Shown here in pieces: positions 152 through 18,464 of a stretch of DNA of 42,058 nucleotides. The translations under genes were made by a program, and so were the position numbers. The notes under the pieces are model-generated. The model ran no database searches, was not told the DNA's origin, and saw only the letters and a list, made by a program, of their open reading frames with translations. Source of the stretch: Crocinitomix sp. (lineage in GTDB: Bacteria; Bacteroidota; Bacteroidia; Flavobacteriales_D; Crocinitomicaceae); the NCBI GenBank assembly GCA_013138735.1, contig WTCE01000022.1:1-42058 (forward strand), written 5' to 3'. Within the stretch, counting starts at the first letter, position 1. Every line of letters begins with the position of its first letter.

Positions 152-253
152 ATGAAAATAATTTCATCCATCCAACCCACACTTCTCCCTTTATCTGCTG
201 CCCAGCGAACAGATGAAAAAATTACTGATCCCCATATTGAAATTAAGCGGTAA
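152..253 (+). CDS. Possible 33-aa small ORF just upstream of the sensor kinase
   Basis: An ATG-initiated reading frame of 33 codons ends 29 bp before the kinase start. The product would begin MKIISSIQPTLLPLSAAQ and end in a charged tail, IEIKR. It has no recognisable domain and no Gly-Gly motif like the peptides downstream of the kinase. A sequence near 110 (TATAATTG, one mismatch from TAnnTTTG) could be a promoter -7 box. In AT-rich DNA an ORF this short can arise by chance, so this is only a candidate leader or signal peptide. Conservation of the frame in relatives would decide it. Confidence 0.25.
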   Translation: MKIISSIQPTLLPLSAAQRTDEKITDPHIEIKR

Positions 254-2244: not shown

Positions 2245-2577
2245 GTAGACACCATACATTTCTTTTTAGGGAAATCTCCTTTTTTTGCCTGCACCAAATA
2301 TTAACTCTCCTCAATGGATGTTGTTTTTTCCACACGAAACAACCACTTATCCTCATGGCGTAAAATCACCATTTTTTTCGAAGTAGATTTGGTTTAATAG
2401 AAGTTAAACATTAATCCAAATTACAAGCAATTTTATCGAATCTATTTCAGCGAAGAATTAGACAGAACAATACCCTTAACTCACAAATTGCACTAAAAAT
2501 TTGCACAGTCTTAACTGTTTAATTTCTGAAATATGTCACTGCTAAAACGGTAGATACGAAATTATTTAAGAACTAAA
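2245..2577. other. 333-bp gap between kinase and peptide genes
   Basis: No credible gene is seen. A weak inverted repeat followed by seven Ts (near 2269-2287) could end kinase transcription. The A/T-rich stretch before 2578 should hold the peptide promoter, but no clear TAnnTTTG box was found. The gap suggests that the peptide genes are transcribed separately from the kinase. Confidence 0.4.
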
Positions 2578-2715
2578 ATGAGGCTTATGAACGCAAAAAA
2601 GAAGGAAAAAAGTATTCAAAAAATGAATATTAAACCTATAAGCATGAAACAACTGCACATGATCAAAGGTGGTAGCCGAAATGCTATTGTTGAGGAAACG
2701 GCAGAAGGTATTTAA
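2578..2715 (+). CDS. Gly-Gly leader small peptide 1 (45 aa)
   Basis: The 45-aa product has a Lys-rich leader ending ISMKQLHMIKGG (GG at 31-32) and a 13-residue tail, SRNAIVEETAEGI. It is the first of three tandem homologues. A double-glycine motif after a hydrophobic helix resembles bacteriocin-type leaders cleaved by the peptidase domain of ABC exporters, and Bacteroidota natural-product precursor families have similar leaders. The tail has no Cys and one Ser and one Thr, so a standard lanthipeptide or sactipeptide is unlikely. Several in-frame ATGs exist (codons 1, 4, 16, 23). Codon 1 was chosen because it gives a leader at least as long as the paralogues; codon 4 is equally possible. No exporter or modification enzyme is adjacent. 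Confidence 0.7.
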   Translation: MRLMNAKKKEKSIQKMNIKPISMKQLHMIKGGSRNAIVEETAEGI

Positions 2716-2747
2716 CCCAAAATAATAATCACTTAAAAACAATTAAA

Positions 2748-2858
2748 ATGAAAAAGAGTATCAAAAAATTTAAAGCTGAAAAAATTTCAATTAAGAAATT
2801 AAACCTGCTGATTGGTGGCAGAAACACTATAGTTATTGAAGACGCCGAAGGTATTTAA
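2748..2858 (+). CDS. Gly-Gly leader small peptide 2 (36 aa)
   Basis: This is the second tandem copy: leader MKKSIKKFKAEKISIKKLN followed by LLIGG (GG at 23-24) and the 12-residue tail RNTIVIEDAEGI. It starts 32 bp after the stop of copy 1. The spacer (CCCAA, then ATCACTTAAAAACAA and TTAAA just before the ATG) recurs nearly unchanged before copy 3, so gene and spacer were duplicated together. The leader is closest to copy 3. The predicted mature tail is acidic and Cys-free. Homology to copies 1 and 3 makes it a real gene despite its size. Confidence 0.75.
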   Translation: MKKSIKKFKAEKISIKKLNLLIGGRNTIVIEDAEGI

Positions 2859-2890
2859 CCCAAGTCATTATCACTTAAAAACAAATTAAA

Positions 2891-3004
2891 ATGAAAAAGT
2901 GTATTGAAAAATTTAAGACCAAGAAAATTTCAATTAAGCAATTAAACCTGCTTAAAGGTGGTCGAAATAATGCGATTGTTGAAGAGGATGCCGAGGGATT
3001 TTAG
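2891..3004 (+). CDS. Gly-Gly leader small peptide 3 (37 aa)
   Basis: The third copy has the leader MKKCIEKFKTKKISIKQLN followed by LLKGG (GG at 23-24) and the 13-residue tail RNNAIVEEDAEGF. The tail contains no Cys, Ser, Thr or Lys, which argues against lanthionine, thioether or microviridin-type side-chain crosslinks. The consensus tail of the three copies is R-N-x-(A)-I-V-x-E-x-A-E-G-(I/F). The gene is 77 bp upstream of the first PKD protein, on the same strand. Plausible products are a secreted signal or a short secreted effector; neither is shown by the sequence. Confidence 0.75.
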   Translation: MKKCIEKFKTKKISIKQLNLLKGGRNNAIVEEDAEGF

Positions 3005-3032
3005 TCCCTTACGCTAGAAATAAGACCGGAGC

Positions 3033-3081
3033 TTGCCAAAAATCCGTTAAAAGAGTAGGCGTTTAATCTAATACAAAATTT
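3033..3081 (+). promoter_or_regulatory. Conserved 49-bp upstream block of the first PKD gene
   Basis: From TTGCC to the start codon this block aligns without gaps to the block before the paralogous gene at 5175, including GCGTTTAAT and AATACAAAA. It probably contains the promoter and translation start region, though no exact TAnnTTTG box is present. Confidence 0.5.
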
Positions 3082-5016
3082 ATGAAAAAGAGAGATCATG
3101 AGGCCTACATTGAATCTGATGTTAGAAACCCAAAATTTATGCAATTAAAAAGCATGGTTATCCTGTTTTTGCTGACACTTTTTGGCACCAGTACACTTGC
3201 ACAGCCAAATTGCCCAGCAATGGGATGGGAAAATGAACCTATTCAAGATCCTGATGGCTGTTGTATATTATTTGATATGTTGCCCAGTACACTTGATTTT
3301 CCATGGGCATATTGGTTCGTAGTTGCGGATGGAGCAACCTATAACAGTAGTACTTACCCTACTGGCGAATTTCCTATTTGTTTTGATGATGCAGGAATGG
3401 AAAATGTCGTTGTAACCTATGTTGATGCTTTCGGCATAACGTTATGCGAAAACGATTGGACAGTTTTTGTTGAAACAGGTTGCGCGGTGCCATGTGAAGA
3501 CTGTGTTGATTTTGTCGGAATTGAAATCACTACTGCAGATGAGTGCACATATGATTTTGAAATGAGCTATACAGTTGATCTAAGTTGCGGTGAAGTCATG
3601 ATCACTTCACTATTATGGGATTTTGGTGATGGAACCTTTGATACTGAAAGTTCACCTAGTCACACCTTCCCAGATTATGACGCGTATACAGTTACAGCAA
3701 CAATTGTATATACTGTCGACGGAGAACCTTGTTCTCAAGAGCAAACCGTAACCGCATGGGCATGGGGTTGCGGCGGTGATGGTGACGGATTCGAATGCGC
3801 CCCCTTTGAGTTTATCTCAAGTACTGATACTGAAATGACAATGGGATTACCAACAGCTGAGACTTGCGTGGACCCAACTTATCAAATTAATATTACTGAA
3901 TTTGGTAGTGGAGACCCTTTAGCGCCTGCTACTTTTACCACTACTGAGGTTTCACCAGATGTTTGGGAGGCAACTATAACGGGATTAGATCCATGCACAG
4001 CATACGAAGTTCAAGCTGTACTTCTTTGTGATGGCTTAGTGTTAGGCTCCTGTTCAAAAGATGTGCCTTGGGAAACTAATTGCCCTGCGCCATGCACGGG
4101 TTGTTTGATTGTTGATGAGATAGCTATTATTAGTTTTGACGGCTGTGAATATCGTTTAGAGGCCGTTTACGAAGAAACAGATGCCTGTGGAGTTATAGAT
4201 GTCACCTCCGTTTATTGGGATTTTGGAGATGGAAATACGGATGATGATGCTGTTGTTGATGTATCATTTTTATGTGAAGGAATGAAAACTGTTACGGCAA
4301 CCATTTATTACACCTCTTCTCTTCACCCTGATATTGCATGTGTTGTAGAAATTACTGAGGATATTGATGTAATTGGTTGTGATGGCGAATGCCCACCTCC
4401 TTGCGAAGTAATAAACTCACCACCGATTTGTGAAGATTGTCTTGTTTCAGACGGAATTTCACTTGCAACAGCCCCAAGTGGGTGCGTATACCAGTTTATA
4501 ATGGATTATGCAACTAATGAAGCTGAATGTGGTACAATTGGTATTATTTCTATCGAATGGGATTTTGGTGATGGAACAACAGGCACTGGTCCTATTGGAA
4601 ATCACACTTATGCTGGAGACGGCACTTATACCGTAACTGGAGTGATCACTTACCTTTCTTCAGCTTTAGGCATAGAATGCACACATAGTGCATGCCTAGA
4701 AGTTCATGTAACAGGTTGCGGCGGTCATGCTCCCAAAATGGCTGAAGGACCTGGAAGTGGAATTACTGCTACTACAGTTCCAAACCCAGCAGACGAAATG
4801 GTAACTATTACGGTACTTGACCCAAATAATTCTTCAGGTGTGGATCAGCTTGAATTGGTCATTTTCGATATCAATGGTCGCGAAGTATACCGTGGAAATA
4901 CAACACTTGGATCGCAAAAAATGATAAATGTAAGTCACTTTGAAAGTGGCCTTTATATCTATGAAGTTCGAGATGGTGAAACTGTAATCTTGAAAGAGAA
5001 GTTATTGATTAAATAA
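3082..5016 (+). CDS. Secreted Cys-rich PKD-domain protein with T9SS type A sorting domain
   Basis: The 644-aa protein has an unusual charged N-terminal extension (residues 1-19) before a signal peptide that starts at Met20 and ends near LAQ (39-41). A Cys-rich domain shared with the next gene spans about 41-145. PKD-type modules carry WDFGDG at about 179-184, 379-384 and 493-498, with a fibronectin-III-like segment at 236-330 between the first two. The C-terminus (about 563-644, starting TTVPNPA and ending ILKEKLLIK) is a type A sorting domain, so the protein should be exported by T9SS and attached to or released from the cell surface. Many Cys pairs (CEDC, CTGC) suggest disulfides. The start at 3082 is preferred over Met20 because extension and upstream region are conserved in the paralogue. 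PKD modules usually mediate binding; no catalytic motif is seen. Confidence 0.88.
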   Translation: MKKRDHEAYIESDVRNPKFMQLKSMVILFLLTLFGTSTLAQPNCPAMGWENEPIQDPDGCCILFDMLPSTLDFPWAYWFVVADGATYNSSTYPTGEFPICFDDAGMENVVVTYVDAFGITLCENDWTVFVETGCAVPCEDCVDFVGIEITTADECTYDFEMSYTVDLSCGEVMITSLLWDFGDGTFDTESSPSHTFPDYDAYTVTATIVYTVDGEPCSQEQTVTAWAWGCGGDGDGFECAPFEFISSTDTEMTMGLPTAETCVDPTYQINITEFGSGDPLAPATFTTTEVSPDVWEATITGLDPCTAYEVQAVLLCDGLVLGSCSKDVPWETNCPAPCTGCLIVDEIAIISFDGCEYRLEAVYEETDACGVIDVTSVYWDFGDGNTDDDAVVDVSFLCEGMKTVTATIYYTSSLHPDIACVVEITEDIDVIGCDGECPPPCEVINSPPICEDCLVSDGISLATAPSGCVYQFIMDYATNEAECGTIGIISIEWDFGDGTTGTGPIGNHTYAGDGTYTVTGVITYLSSALGIECTHSACLEVHVTGCGGHAPKMAEGPGSGITATTVPNPADEMVTITVLDPNNSSGVDQLELVIFDINGREVYRGNTTLGSQKMINVSHFESGLYIYEVRDGETVILKEKLLIK

Positions 5017-5049
5017 GCATTTTATCAAATACAGAGCAAATCGTGAATT

Positions 5050-5087
5050 GAACCACTGCGTAATTTTGCGTGGTGGTTCTTTTTTTT
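5050..5087 (+). terminator. Intrinsic terminator after the first PKD gene
   Basis: GAACCAC pairs with GTGGTTC around an inner stem with wobble pairs, followed by eight Ts. The hairpin is nearly identical to the one after the paralogue at 6557. Confidence 0.85.
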
Positions 5088-5125
5088 AAAAGTATTGCCT
5101 ATTACATAATGATAGCAAGAAGAAC

Positions 5126-5174
5126 TTGCCAAAAACCCACTAAAAAAGTAAGCGTTTAATTTAATACAAAACTT
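5126..5174 (+). promoter_or_regulatory. Conserved 49-bp upstream block of the second PKD gene
   Basis: This is the partner of the 3033-3081 block, alignable without gaps. The second PKD gene lies behind a terminator, so it needs its own promoter, which this block probably supplies. Confidence 0.5.
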
Positions 5175-6524
5175 ATGAAAAAGAGAAAAAATGAATCCAC
5201 CTATCCAATGATTAGGAGGCCAAAGTTTATGCAATTCAAAAGTATGATTTTCATGTTCTTACTGACACTTTGCGGAACCAGTGCACTTGCACAGCCAAAT
5301 TGCCCAGGAATGGGATGGGAAAATGAACCTATACAGGATCCAGATGGCTGCTGCATTTTGTTTGACATGTTACCAAGCACACTTGATTTTACATGGGCAT
5401 ATTGGTTCGTAGTTGCAGATGGTGAAACCTATAATAGCGCTACCTACCCAGATGGCAATTTTGAGGTTTGCTATGATGACCCTGGGATGGAAAATGTCGT
5501 TGTAACTTATGTTGATGGTTTGGGTGTCACGTTATGCGAAAATGACTGGACTGTTTTTGTTGAAAAAGGTTGTGAAACAACTTGCGAAGATTGCATCAAT
5601 TTTGAAGGCATTGACATTCTTGCATCCGTTGGCTGTGAGTACACTTTTGAAGCAGATTTTGAATTTACAGATGCTTGTGGCGATATTACCCTAAACTTTA
5701 TTTATTGGGATTTTGGTTTCAATGGTCCAGATGGGACTGAGTATGGTGAAACAGCAGTTTTTGATGCAGCCTTTTTGTGCGCGGGAACATATCGTGTTAT
5801 AGCATATATTTCATTCACTACTGAATCAGGTGAAGTATGTATTGATTCAACTTCAATTTTAGTAGAAGTTGCCGACTGTGATGATTTATGCTCCTCCTGT
5901 TATTTAACTGAATGTGTTGATGCATCTCCTTTTGTAGTTGGGTGGACCGGCGGTGATGATTGTAAACCCACTTTTTGGTTTCATTATTCAGTAAACGAAG
6001 AATGTAAAGACATTGATCCTGCAAGCATATCATTCGACTGGGATTTTGGTTACCCAAGTGGAACTGACACATCCCCAACAGGCACTATTACGCATGAATT
6101 CCCATGTAATGACATATATCTTGTAACTCTAACTTTTAATTACAGGTTTATGGGCGAAATTGAAGATAGATCATGTACCATGACAATTGAATGGGAAACT
6201 ACAACCTGTGACAAAGGATGTCGTGATAAAATGAGGGAAAAGACTGTAAGCGATTTTACAAATAGTCCCTTAGCCGCCACAACTGTGCCAAATCCAGCAA
6301 ACGATATCGTCAACATAATGGTTCTTGACCCTACTAATTCTTCAGATATAAGTCAATTGGTTTTGGTTGTTTTTGATATCAACGGTAAAGAAGTTTTTCG
6401 TGACAATATGAGTCTCGGATCGCAAAAAATGATAGATGTAAGTTCATTTGAAAGTGGCCTTTATATTTATGAAATTAGAGACGGTCAAACTGTAATACTG
6501 AAAGAAAAATTATTGATTAAATAA
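5175..6524 (+). CDS. Secreted Cys-rich PKD-like protein, paralogue of the preceding gene
   Basis: The 449-aa protein shares with its upstream neighbour the charged N-terminal extension (MKKRKNESTYPMIRRPKF), the signal peptide (ending LAQ at 38-40) and an almost identical Cys-rich domain (about 41-140). It has only two PKD-like modules, and both have lost the canonical WDFGDG motif: they read WDFGFNG and WDFGYPS. The last 80 residues form a type A T9SS sorting domain very similar to the neighbour's. The fibronectin-like module and one PKD module of the longer paralogue are absent. Conserved ends with diverged middles suggest tandem duplication followed by loss or exchange of the central modules. 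Surface or secreted location is well supported; ligand unknown. Confidence 0.87.
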   Translation: MKKRKNESTYPMIRRPKFMQFKSMIFMFLLTLCGTSALAQPNCPGMGWENEPIQDPDGCCILFDMLPSTLDFTWAYWFVVADGETYNSATYPDGNFEVCYDDPGMENVVVTYVDGLGVTLCENDWTVFVEKGCETTCEDCINFEGIDILASVGCEYTFEADFEFTDACGDITLNFIYWDFGFNGPDGTEYGETAVFDAAFLCAGTYRVIAYISFTTESGEVCIDSTSILVEVADCDDLCSSCYLTECVDASPFVVGWTGGDDCKPTFWFHYSVNEECKDIDPASISFDWDFGYPSGTDTSPTGTITHEFPCNDIYLVTLTFNYRFMGEIEDRSCTMTIEWETTTCDKGCRDKMREKTVSDFTNSPLAATTVPNPANDIVNIMVLDPTNSSDISQLVLVVFDINGKEVFRDNMSLGSQKMIDVSSFESGLYIYEIRDGQTVILKEKLLIK

Positions 6525-14720: not shown

Positions 14721-17684
14721 TTATTCTTGAAACTTCTCAGCACCACCTAATTTAAGGATAACTTTTGTACCTAAACATTCACCATTATCACCATTCATTT
14801 GAAAGGGGCCTATAATTAAAAGGTTCTCACCTGTTAAGCGCCGCAATATTTCAATTCGTCTATTGGTAATTTCAACTCCTTTAGATTCATGATCGCCTGC
14901 AATCTGATCCTTTTTGGCAGCCAAACTATTGTCAATACCCAAACCATTGTCGATCACTTCAAAAACAACTTCACCAAACTCTTGGTATACCTTTACTTCG
15001 ATTTGCCCTTTTCTTTCTAAGGATAATACACCATGAATAATACTATTTTCAACAAATGGTTGCAGAATCATTGAAGGAATTTCAATCGATTCGGTATCTA
15101 ATGCGGAAGAAACGTCAATTGTGAATTCAAACTTATCAGAAAAACGCATTTTTTCTAAGCCAAGATATAATTCAATCCGCTCTATTTCTTCTTGCAAGGT
15201 GACAATAAAATTATTGGCGGCCGAACTGTCCAAATTCATCCGGATCAATTTGGCGAAATTTGAGAGGAATTTATTGGCAGATCTTTTGTTAGAACTATTA
15301 ATGAAATATTGGATGGAATTTAAGGAGTTAAAAATGAAGTGCCTATTCATACTTGCATTTAAGGATCGTTGTTCCAAAAACAATAATCTATTTTTAAGAT
15401 CCAATTTCTCATTGTCCTGTTTTTGCTTGAGCACACGAATCCGCGATTGAAAAACGTAGACAATTATTAAGAATCCAGCTAAAACCATTAATGCTATAAA
15501 CCACCACGATTTCCAAAACGGAGGATGAATAACCAGATTGACTTCTTGTATGGTTGACCAATCTTTACTTTTATTCATTGCTCTTACCTGAAAGGTATAA
15601 GTACCCGGTTGTAAAAATGAATAGGTTGCATAATTTGACTGTGAAACGGGAGACCATTGTTCATCCACACCAATTAGGCGATACTCGTATTGCACGGATT
15701 TTGGATTTTTGAGATTGATTCCTATAAAATCAAATGTCAAGTGATTCTTATTATGCGGAAATTCAATCGTTCTGGGCACATTAAAAACTGAATCTAATTC
15801 GTGCTCATATTCGTTATAATTGAATTTTTCCATGAAGAGTCGTATACCTGTAATATGCAACACGGGAAGTTCATAATTAAATAACGTTTCGCTTGCTGAC
15901 GGATCAATTTTACCAAGGCCTCGCGCAGTTCCTACCCAAATATTCCCCTCAGTATCTTCATACAACGCATTGATATTCGTTTCTTCATCTATTAAACCTT
16001 CAGCTGTACCATAATTGTTTATCGTGTAATTTCGTTTATCTAGATTATCATACTCTACTTGATAAACCCCTTTCATTCCAGATATCCAAACACTACCATC
16101 TTTACTAGTCACGAGTCCCAATATATTTTTTGAACGGTAATTTCTTGCGTCTAAATGGAACCGGTAGACTTTGCGATTTGAATTCATGACAAATAGGCCG
16201 TTTTCAGTTCCGATCCATAAGTTTTTTTGATAATCTGATGTTAATGCATTGATTTTCAATTCAGGCAGCTCAACATGCTCATAAGTTTGGAAATCTCCTT
16301 TGGCGTCAAAAACATATAAACCTGTCGATTCTGTTCCACAGTAGATTTTGCCGTTTAGCTTATATAATTTATTGATATTCAAATCAGGATAATACATATA
16401 AGCAGAATCATTTTGCATCACAATGAGTCCTTCATCACCGCCCATTAACATGGTTTGGCTATTTGCCAGGGCCATGGTTCTAATTTTTGGAAACTTGCCT
16501 TGCAATGGATGGGCAACTGGTTGACTGTTTTCATCTAAAATCGCTAATCCTTGCGAGGTTCCTATCCATGTGCGGTTTAATGAATCTTGAAAGGTAACCC
16601 AAACCGTATTATCAAAAATAACTCCTTCACGACTACGGATGTATTCAACACCACCGTCTGAACGAAAAAGTGTGACGCCACTATCATAGGTTCCAAAAAT
16701 AAACCCTCCACTAGTATCCTGAGCAACAGACAAAACTAAATCACTCCCTAATTCATCATTCGCCGTATAGTATACAATCGAAGTTCCTGAGAATTTAAGT
16801 AAACCACTTCCATTGGTCCCCATCCAAATATTTCCTTCATGATCCTTAAAGAGACAATCCAATCCAAATCCCATTAAACCATTTGAATCATCAAAATACA
16901 ATGTGTCCTTTTCATTGATCAAAAAAGCACCAGCGTTTTTACTGATCCCAAAAATCATATCTTCACTTATAACAACAGCTGAAGCCGAAGTGAAATTTAA
17001 ATCATAATTAACGGACTCACCCGTCAATAAATCATAGGAAAACAAACCAACATGGCGTGCTGTTACGTAAAGTTTATCATTGTGGATACTAACTGATCTA
17101 ACACTAATATCTTCGAATCCAGGAATTAAGAGCTGACTAAATGCTTCACCATTCCAAATGTGCAATCCCTTTTTCGAACCACATATCAAAATGGAATCGC
17201 GATAGGAAACGGTAGATCTTATATAGTATTCCTGCGCAATTGTGTCGCCAACTTGAGAGAACTCAGAATTATTTAAATGTATGAGCCCTGTATTACTAGC
17301 AAAGTACATTTCTCCTTTTAACTCGGCGATATCATTAATCCGATAACTTTCCTGAAAATTGTGCGTGATTATTTCTTTCTTTTGGAAAACAGCGACTCCT
17401 TTTGAAGTAGCAACCCATAAAACACCACGCTCACTCACATACAATCGTCTTACTTTATTATCTGGAAGTCCATCATCAATTGAATAGTTTTTAAACTCAA
17501 TTCCATTATAGCGACTTAATCCGGAAGAAGTTCCAACCCATAAATAGCCGTGCTGATCTTGACAGATGTCAGTTACTTGAGATTGGGCCAATCCATCCTC
17601 AACAGTATAACTTTTGACATTATAATGCTGCGCAAAGGAGAATAACGTGAAAATTGATGCTAAGGCAACGAGAAGACTCTTCAC
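14721..17684 (-). CDS. Propeller-type sensor histidine kinase, LytS family
   Basis: This 987-aa protein starts with a signal peptide (MKSLLVALASIFTLFSFAQ). Two-component-regulator propeller repeats (motifs such as DxxGYLWVGTxxGLSRY) fill about 20-600 and are followed by a Y_Y_Y domain (about 645-710), one transmembrane segment (726-746), a short coiled coil and a LytS-type kinase domain. His782 in MNRHFIFNSLNSIQ is the expected phosphorylation site, and Asn880 in LQPFVENSIIHG is the ATP-binding residue. The start is a GTG at 17684, 3 bp after the stop of the response-regulator gene, and the signal peptide begins directly there. The two genes form an operon and almost certainly a cognate pair. 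The ligand of the periplasmic propeller is unknown. Confidence 0.92.
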   Translation of the reverse strand: MKSLLVALASIFTLFSFAQHYNVKSYTVEDGLAQSQVTDICQDQHGYLWVGTSSGLSRYNGIEFKNYSIDDGLPDNKVRRLYVSERGVLWVATSKGVAVFQKKEIITHNFQESYRINDIAELKGEMYFASNTGLIHLNNSEFSQVGDTIAQEYYIRSTVSYRDSILICGSKKGLHIWNGEAFSQLLIPGFEDISVRSVSIHNDKLYVTARHVGLFSYDLLTGESVNYDLNFTSASAVVISEDMIFGISKNAGAFLINEKDTLYFDDSNGLMGFGLDCLFKDHEGNIWMGTNGSGLLKFSGTSIVYYTANDELGSDLVLSVAQDTSGGFIFGTYDSGVTLFRSDGGVEYIRSREGVIFDNTVWVTFQDSLNRTWIGTSQGLAILDENSQPVAHPLQGKFPKIRTMALANSQTMLMGGDEGLIVMQNDSAYMYYPDLNINKLYKLNGKIYCGTESTGLYVFDAKGDFQTYEHVELPELKINALTSDYQKNLWIGTENGLFVMNSNRKVYRFHLDARNYRSKNILGLVTSKDGSVWISGMKGVYQVEYDNLDKRNYTINNYGTAEGLIDEETNINALYEDTEGNIWVGTARGLGKIDPSASETLFNYELPVLHITGIRLFMEKFNYNEYEHELDSVFNVPRTIEFPHNKNHLTFDFIGINLKNPKSVQYEYRLIGVDEQWSPVSQSNYATYSFLQPGTYTFQVRAMNKSKDWSTIQEVNLVIHPPFWKSWWFIALMVLAGFLIIVYVFQSRIRVLKQKQDNEKLDLKNRLLFLEQRSLNASMNRHFIFNSLNSIQYFINSSNKRSANKFLSNFAKLIRMNLDSSAANNFIVTLQEEIERIELYLGLEKMRFSDKFEFTIDVSSALDTESIEIPSMILQPFVENSIIHGVLSLERKGQIEVKVYQEFGEVVFEVIDNGLGIDNSLAAKKDQIAGDHESKGVEITNRRIEILRRLTGENLLIIGPFQMNGDNGECLGTKVILKLGGAEKFQE

Positions 17685-17687
17685 CTA

Positions 17688-18464
17688 TTATAAGGATTTA
17701 AGCGTTTTAACAAAACTAGAAACACGGTTTCTTGCAACAGAAAGAAGTTTACCATTCTTTAAAATTGCAAAATGGCCATCTTCGTTCAAATATTCTTTCA
17801 AATAATCCATATTTACAATATGTGATTTATGAATGCGATAAAATATATCTGGCGTTAAAATACCCTCGTAAATTTTTAAGGTACGTGTATCCAAATAACG
17901 TGTGCCGTCTGCGAAATACAAGATCGTACAATTGCCTGAAGCTTCTAAGTACATAATATCGTTAATATCAATCAACTTAATTCCTTTTGTATGGCTAATT
18001 GCTACCTTATTTCCATAACCTTGCGATTCCATGGAAGAAGAAAGGTTTTTAATAGACTCAAAATAGGTGTCAAAATTACCTGGGTTCTCAGTAAACGTAG
18101 ATTTAGCTTCTTTAATTTTAGTAACTGCTCGAATTAAATCATCAATATCAACAGGTTTTAAAACGTAGTGAATTGCATTTGCATTGAAAGCGCGCAAGGC
18201 GTAATCTTTAAATGCCGTAACAAATACCACTAAAAAATTTCGATTTTCAATTGTATCCAATAAATCAAACCCTTCTGATCCACTTGGCATACGAATGTCC
18301 AGAAAAACGACATCTGGTTTCAATTCTTCAATTTTTTGTTTAGCCGTGGTGATATTACCTGCATCTGCTATGACTTCAACATCCTCACAGTAATCATGTA
18401 ATAACATGGTGAGATTTTTTCTTGCCAAATCCTCGTCGTCTACTACTATCGCTTTTAATTTCAT
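17688..18464 (-). CDS. LytR/AlgR-family response regulator
   Basis: The 258-aa protein has a receiver domain (1-120) with acidic residues D9/D10, phospho-acceptor Asp56 in VFLDIRMP, Thr83 and Lys103 (VLKPVD). A LytTR DNA-binding domain follows (about 150-255; MYLEASGNCTILYF, YRIHKSHIVNMDYL). It is the first gene of a two-gene operon with the propeller kinase that begins 3 bp downstream. LytTR regulators bind paired direct repeats upstream of targets; no such site could be assigned here with confidence. The acidic lipoprotein and adhesin genes further down the same strand are possible targets, by position only. Confidence 0.94.
   Translation of the reverse strand: MKLKAIVVDDEDLARKNLTMLLHDYCEDVEVIADAGNITTAKQKIEELKPDVVFLDIRMPSGSEGFDLLDTIENRNFLVVFVTAFKDYALRAFNANAIHYVLKPVDIDDLIRAVTKIKEAKSTFTENPGNFDTYFESIKNLSSSMESQGYGNKVAISHTKGIKLIDINDIMYLEASGNCTILYFADGTRYLDTRTLKIYEGILTPDIFYRIHKSHIVNMDYLKEYLNEDGHFAILKNGKLLSVARNRVSSFVKTLKSL

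Follow-up and report, generated by a model that had tools for sequence, protein, structure and literature searches.

Peptide signalling through Gly-Gly (GG) leaders and LytTR regulators is well established in Gram-positive bacteria and, as far as we know, little studied in Bacteroidota. Pheromones of the Gram-positive GSP-BlpH/BlpR kind carry such leaders. In the excerpt of its description used here, that system consists of a secreted peptide, a kinase, a LytTR response regulator and a conserved operator ahead of the target genes (PMC8545106), and it is in these parts that the locus analyzed below resembles it. Among Bacteroidales, GG precursors have been noted near signalling proteins, an arrangement that the authors, in the section drawn on here, say could indicate signalling (PMC10352776).

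The window, that is, the whole stretch of DNA analyzed, is an entire contig (C150, 42,058 bases) of a 6.84-Mb Crocinitomix sp. genome with a completeness rating of 97.5%. A preliminary description of this DNA had placed three GG mini-genes beside an orphan TPR/LytS kinase and ahead of secreted proteins. All three were found as open reading frames at exactly those positions, and T9SS-sorted proteins do lie downstream. The features of this part of the window are as follows:

283 to 2244, + strand: TPR/LytS-type sensor kinase, 653 aa, with TPRs and a His_kinase domain (PF06580); its probable partner is a LytTR regulator encoded at the end of C54
2328 to 2357, + strand: putative LytTR site of two 9-bp direct repeats (2328-2336 and 2349-2357) at 21-bp spacing, 6 of 9 bases alike
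2384 to 2391, + strand: putative −7 box, TAGATTTG, invariant in the window and in the related loci L019 and L020
2440 to 3028, + strand: cassette missing from L019 and L020; extent approximate, borders drawn by eye and uncertain by tens of bases
2578 to 2715, + strand: GG mini-gene 1, 45 aa; leader 2578-2673, tail SRNAIVEETAEGI at 2674-2712 (13 residues); alternative ATG at 2587
2748 to 2858, + strand: GG mini-gene 2, 36 aa; leader 2748-2819, tail RNTIVIEDAEGI at 2820-2855 (12 residues)
2891 to 3004, + strand: GG mini-gene 3, 37 aa; leader 2891-2962, tail RNNAIVEEDAEGF at 2963-3001 (13 residues)
3082 to 5016, + strand: secreted PKD protein with a T9SS sorting domain, possibly co-transcribed with the mini-genes; an orthologue (54-55% identity) follows the kinase in both relatives
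5050 to 5079, + strand: terminator-like hairpin, 13 pairs and 8 T

The mini-genes form a tandem array with a period of 143 bases (77% matches) and belong to a family of which this genome carries 12 intact members and a decayed one, spread over four loci: the window (three copies), contig C54 (three), contig C27 (one, plus the decayed copy) and contig C106 (five). In the window leaders, the terminal GG is preceded by Leu at −7 and by hydrophobic residues at −12 and −4, a combination expected of peptides exported by C39 ABC transporters. Set against the ComA leader consensus, given in the part of the source drawn on here as Leu(−12)-X3-Glu(−8)-Leu(−7) before GG (PMC6363468), leaders of the family share the Leu at −7 and the hydrophobic residue at −12 and lack the Glu at −8. 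The bacteriocin leader model TIGR01847 recognized one C54 copy (16.1 bits, cut-off 15.7) and scored a C106 copy below that cut-off (13.4 bits), with none of the three window copies among the matches listed. Scores for TIGR04149 (GG_sam_targ_CFB, rSAM-modified RiPP) were 13.2, 11.2 and 12.3 bits, all below the curated cut-off of 25.

The tails had been said to be more alike than drift would leave them, implying selection on the mature part. We compared leader and tail by pN/pS and by a simple binomial test, for each copy pair, of whether nonsynonymous changes were fewer than the neutral expectation, and found signs of purifying selection. Between window copies 2 and 3, the tails had a pS of 1.06 and a pN of 0.16; nonsynonymous changes in the tails fell below neutral for copies 2-3 (P = 0.0026) and 1-3 (P = 0.0092), but copies 1-2 gave no such sign (P = 0.46), and selection on the tails is thus upheld for two of the three window pairs. 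The corresponding values for the leaders were P = 0.024 (2-3), 0.024 (1-3) and 0.069 (1-2). Tail likeness likewise holds among the window copies but not between loci, where leaders are the better kept part: comparing copy 3 with the three copies on C54 and the one on C27 gave a pN of 0.37-0.46 for tails and 0.25-0.28 for leaders. C54 copies a and b have no synonymous difference in their tails although their leaders do differ, a pattern that suggests tail recombination. We take the three mini-genes to be real genes.

So far, the family is known from a single genome. A single-copy query at E ≤ 0.1 returned seven matches in its own genome, itself included, and none among 39 relatives, and copy 3 found nothing at E ≤ 1 in a plasmid search. 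A seven-member profile at E ≤ 0.1 matched 8 of 150 family-level genomes, the seven besides its own at only 0.009-0.08; of two of these inspected, G002 holds a GG peptide of another kind and G054 shows no GG peptide at the site in its open reading frame listing. With a 12-member profile at E ≤ 0.001, the only match among 395 class-level genomes was the genome itself. We found no literature on the family among open-licence PMC papers. On C27, the decayed copy (L014:8418-8522) carries in-frame stops and adjoins the intact one; by eye, both have a similar upstream segment, which is also common to the first C54 copy. An intergenic stretch on C106 (L076:2932-3045) is a remnant of a further copy that has no start codon.

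We turn to the kinase, which the preliminary description had taken for an orphan and for the receptor of the peptides. It probably looks like an orphan only because the window begins at a contig edge: the orthologue of the regulator that stands ahead of the kinase in relatives, a LytTR-domain protein (78% identity), lies on another contig, at C54:65687-66427. That regulator ends 178 bases short of the end of C54 (66,608 bases) and the kinase begins 282 bases into the window, the corresponding gap at L019 being about 70 bases; we infer that the end of C54 joins the start of the window. The orphan label is therefore unsafe, an orphan kinase is unlikely given this regulator, and the kinase is probably one half of an ordinary kinase/regulator pair. 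A small open reading frame a little upstream of the kinase (window positions 152-253) opens with MKIISSI, similar to the MKIFSSI or MKIFSRI with which the kinases of the relatives begin, and is perhaps a remnant near the contig edge. A second LytS/LytTR-like pair, a propeller kinase with a regulator, occupies 14721-18464; no GG mini-gene was noticed alongside it.

The nearest named relatives of the kinase are found in two MAGs labelled uncultured Crocinitomix (72-73% identity). At both orthologous loci, L019 (G005, contig C340) and L020 (G003, contig C68), the order is response regulator, TPR kinase and PKD/T9SS orthologue, and the kinase-T9SS interval holds no GG mini-genes in either (2/2), although these loci are close kin (kinases 92% and T9SS proteins 98% identical) and count as little more than one independent case. 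The kinase-peptide order that the preliminary description had proposed to look for is thus absent from both relatives, an outcome that, by its own refuting condition, counts against the kinase as dedicated receptor. The cassette was either lost in the relatives or gained in this genome, which is not settled. Aligned with its two orthologues, the window kinase shows identities of 0.74-0.76 over the TPR part (residues 100-380) and 0.75-0.76 over the catalytic part, falling to 0.59-0.62 over residues 1-100, which include the signal peptide. When L019 and L020 are compared with each other, it is the catalytic part that is better kept (0.96, against 0.90 for the TPR part). Since the TPR part of the window kinase is as alike as its catalytic part, there is no clear sign of a sensor retooled for a peptide; with the linkage missing as well, the idea of a dedicated receptor fares poorly. 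The conservation pattern fits a kinase that would switch the cassette on.

The stretch between kinase and cassette bears on this role. The putative −7 box fits what we take to be the Bacteroidota consensus, TAnnTTTG. Upstream of it, a block at 2325-2357 has 28 of 33 columns invariant in an alignment of the window, L019 and L020, and it includes the paired 9-bp repeats, of which 8 of 9 bases are alike in both L019 and L020. In these two loci, no lag from 10 to 40 gives a better repeat than 21 bp within the 149 bases that follow the kinase, and the 21-bp repeat was equalled by 2 of 500 and 0 of 500 shuffles, respectively, of the whole kinase-T9SS interval; the window repeat on its own is degenerate and not significant (208 of 500 shuffles). 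A search pattern written to match the window and its relatives gives no independent test of the site. A typical LytTR site consists of 9-bp direct repeats separated by 10-13 bp, according to the portion of the source drawn on here (PMC11347149), and a LytTR regulator may bind the block. Because the cassette has this conserved promoter block on one side and the T9SS gene on the other, the kinase is more likely its switch. Besides the hairpin after the T9SS gene, the + strand of 2245-5180 contains one other, weaker and within that gene (4934-4950); the two terminator-like sites in the scan do not exceed the number in shuffles (mean 1.7). The window has two paralogous PKD/T9SS proteins with similar upstream stretches at 3082-6524, and a single one is seen directly after the kinase at L019 and L020.

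We next consider the other family loci; counting the window, three of the four lie beside signalling genes. On C54, three acid-tailed copies are divergent from a propeller (Reg_prop/Y_Y_Y) LytS kinase with a LytTR regulator; the probable kinase start is a TTG at L013:5623, which gives 987 aa. On C106, five copies precede another propeller LytS kinase/LytTR regulator pair. The two regulators are 63% identical and the kinases 44% (with the C54 kinase frame taken from L013:5935). The family is thus linked to LytS/LytTR pairs outside the window too, but the evidence at these loci points to transcriptional control rather than to sensing.

Both peptide sets are preceded by repeats with AAATTCT-type cores, all at exactly 21 bp. 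On C54, the gap of about 310 bases between the divergent genes contains three half-sites, at 163, 184 and 205 bases upstream of the first ATG, and these were equalled in 3 of 500 shuffles of a 311-base stretch ending at the kinase start (5 of 500 for a 619-base stretch that took in the start of the divergent kinase gene). On C106, three of the five copies have a half-site pair 106-131 bases ahead of the ATG; one pair is strong (0 of 500 shuffles), and those of C106_a (450 of 500) and C106_b (51 of 500) do not stand out and were recognized by motif, not by shuffles. A half-site matrix built from the C54 and C106 sites scored their pairs at 21.9-26.9, which is high by construction; scores of at least 14 occurred at 8 of 340,330 positions (loci of this genome, both strands, C54 sites included). 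C27 scored weakly (11.6 at lag 21 against 14.4 at lag 22). Ahead of the window genes AAATTCT pairs are absent, the best pair scoring 4.2, and it is this low value that is informative, since the matrix was trained on C54 and C106. The pattern RATTCT-N15-RATTCT occurs 21 times in the genome against 7 for the reversed control; among the 19 occurrences with a hit-centred locus (the off-centre L106 and L108 being left out), 6 fall outside open reading frames of at least 90 aa, and 3 of those 6 are at C54 and C106. As the motif derives from these two loci, only its recurrence between them is independent. That the motif recurs ahead of two peptide sets whose neighbouring regulators are related is the best sign of LytTR control over the family and of a different LytTR regulator for the window set.

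Next to the C54 copies, a 403-aa H[QE]xxH protein stands beside a DCH-type GG peptide (L013:3214-4425 and 4649-4789) and may represent an unnamed RiPP enzyme family. Its homologues (3 of 394 other genomes, G328, G466 and G478, at E ≤ 1e-4) adjoin, by eye, C39-exporter-like proteins and GG peptides of the ACH/DCH type, a type to which the fourth C54 peptide (KGGTAQDCH...) conforms but the acid-tailed copies do not; we accordingly set this protein aside as a maturation enzyme for the latter.

The preliminary description had proposed searching the genome for a C39-peptidase ABC exporter, and one is present, unlinked to the window genes. Among four PF03412 (C39) matches, one lies within a full C39-ABC protein (C126, 737 aa) and the rest in open frames 272-355 codons long. 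None of the TIGR01193 matches in the nine genus genomes, that of the C126 exporter included, reaches the curated cut-off; full-length matches to this profile occur in four of these genomes (this genome, G000, and G001, G002 and G005). G003 has the TPR-kinase locus and no such full-length exporter, and its best match to the C54 regulator is only 41% identical, not a close orthologue. By eye, the neighbours of the C126 exporter are HlyD-like and TolC-like genes and a GG peptide of its own, and in view of the latter it need not take the peptides described here. The wider C126 region (L016:3607-13923) may be another secretion or RiPP locus: next to the exporter set it has two large proteins, one of which contains TPRs, and a GG peptide with the ending MGGGCYSNECCAPSLN. 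A relative, G005, has on contig C538 (L147:5926-10612) a C39-exporter-like protein together with three GG peptides and what by eye, from its CxxxCxxC motif, is probably a radical SAM protein. Neither an exporter nor a modifying enzyme was recognized by eye in the open reading frame listings of the window.

Taken together, we favour, as somewhat the better bet, an explanation in which the three genes encode precursors of 12-13-residue secreted peptides whose expression is switched by LytS/LytTR systems. The TPR kinase would be the switch of the cassette, not a receptor, and would turn on the peptides and the T9SS surface protein together from the conserved promoter at the TPR-kinase/regulator locus. 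Most likely, the one C39 ABC exporter, on C126, would remove the leader behind GG and export the tail, after which the peptide would act outside the cell as an induced signal or a microcin-like effector.

In a contrasting reading, the exported tails are pheromones sensed by the adjacent kinases, the TPR kinase in the window and the propeller kinases at C54 and C106, closing a loop of autoinduction like that of Gram-positive bacteriocin circuits. In its favour, LytS/LytTR pairs stand next to two of the three other family loci, with rough chance odds of 0.0001-0.002 if 20-80 such kinases are assumed among 6000 genes, LytTR-like sites precede the C54 and C106 peptide genes, and there are weak leader matches of window copy 1 to EntF induction factors (17 bits, cut-off 35) and of a C54 copy to BlpC (14.1 bits, cut-off 70). 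We nonetheless consider this unlikely: this genome has many LytS kinases (15 matches at E ≤ 1e-20), two related genomes retain the TPR kinase (72-73%) at loci that have no peptide genes, and G005 keeps the C54 kinase (76%) and regulator (82%) where the profile finds no peptide gene, though the contig there starts inside the kinase gene. A composite network, in which acid-tailed GG peptides at C54 and C106 run under their own LytS/LytTR pairs through the 21-bp repeats and are sensed by the propeller kinases, a lasso-cyclase-like enzyme matures some of them and the window set has been captured by the promoter of a different kinase, is as a whole rather improbable.

Whether the peptides are modified is a related matter, on which the preliminary description had judged common RiPP crosslinks unlikely. 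Its premise holds, as C, S, T and K are all missing downstream of GG in the translation of copy 3, but the unmodified state is not settled, because the C106 locus encodes an Asn-synthase-like enzyme that makes modification possible, at least there. This 656-aa protein (L076:3602-5572) matches Asn_synthase above cut-off (9e-18) and the lasso cyclase model NF033535 at 1.2e-15; it keeps SGGLDS and has no Cys at position 2. Its last 117 residues give weak winged-helix matches (HTH_IclR 18.9 bits, cut-off 22), which might mark a leader-recognition domain. As E or D occupies positions 7-9 in 10 of 12 tails, the peptides could be RiPPs, crosslinked perhaps as macrolactams between residue 1 and that acid, with the enzyme acting in trans on the window copies too. 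We regard this as rather unlikely, though compatible with the switch explanation. Both tails that lack the acid are C106's own, the lasso match reaches 57.1 bits against a cut-off of 525 and is outscored by asparagine synthase TIGR01536 (94.6 bits, also below its own cut-off), and no B1/B2 was recognized by eye among the listed C106 open reading frames, nor any such enzyme beside the window, C54 or C27 copies. A homologue occurs in just 1 of 394 other genomes (E ≤ 1e-20, 25% identity). Lasso precursors, moreover, usually have no GG/C39 leaders. It is very improbable that the copies are merely spreading, decaying duplicates that have no present function: the decayed C27 copy, the C106 remnant, the restriction of matches to one genome and the neutral-looking tails of window copies 1-2 would agree with this, but the depressed nonsynonymous change in the other two pairs and the repeats ahead of the C54 and C106 copies would not.

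The recurring association of peptide genes, LytTR pairs and readable sites makes a testable circuit in a phylum where, as far as we know, few have been described, and a genome of this kind gives a direct means of finding out whether such circuits exist in Bacteroidota. The locus also carries a warning: what looks like an orphan receptor kinase next to mini-genes, when it lies at a contig edge, may have its own partner and act as a switch.

These properties set the locus apart from the systems it most resembles. The kinases here are PF06580 proteins with TPR or propeller sensors, whereas BlpH, in the excerpt consulted, has five transmembrane regions (PMC8545106); the C39 exporter is unlinked, and sensing would be hypothetical here. 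Of the hallmarks of Gram-positive three-component systems, a polytopic receptor kinase and kept linkage, neither was found: the window kinase combines TPRs with PF06580, and L019 and L020 have no peptide genes. The C106 protein, encoded among the peptide copies, is a distant relative of lasso cyclases (NF033535) and differs in its far sub-cut-off score and in the GG leaders of those copies. To GG_sam_targ_CFB (TIGR04149) there is a weak likeness in the GG leader, with no radical SAM enzyme seen by eye in the open reading frame listings of the four loci. The Bacteroidales RiPP cluster BGC5, which includes a kinase and a regulator, has, in the part of its description drawn on here, rSAM and LanC-like genes and long predicted cores, in contrast to the window locus, where no modifying enzyme was recognized and tails are 12-13 residues long; what the two share is GG-type precursors beside signalling genes in Bacteroidota (PMC10352776).
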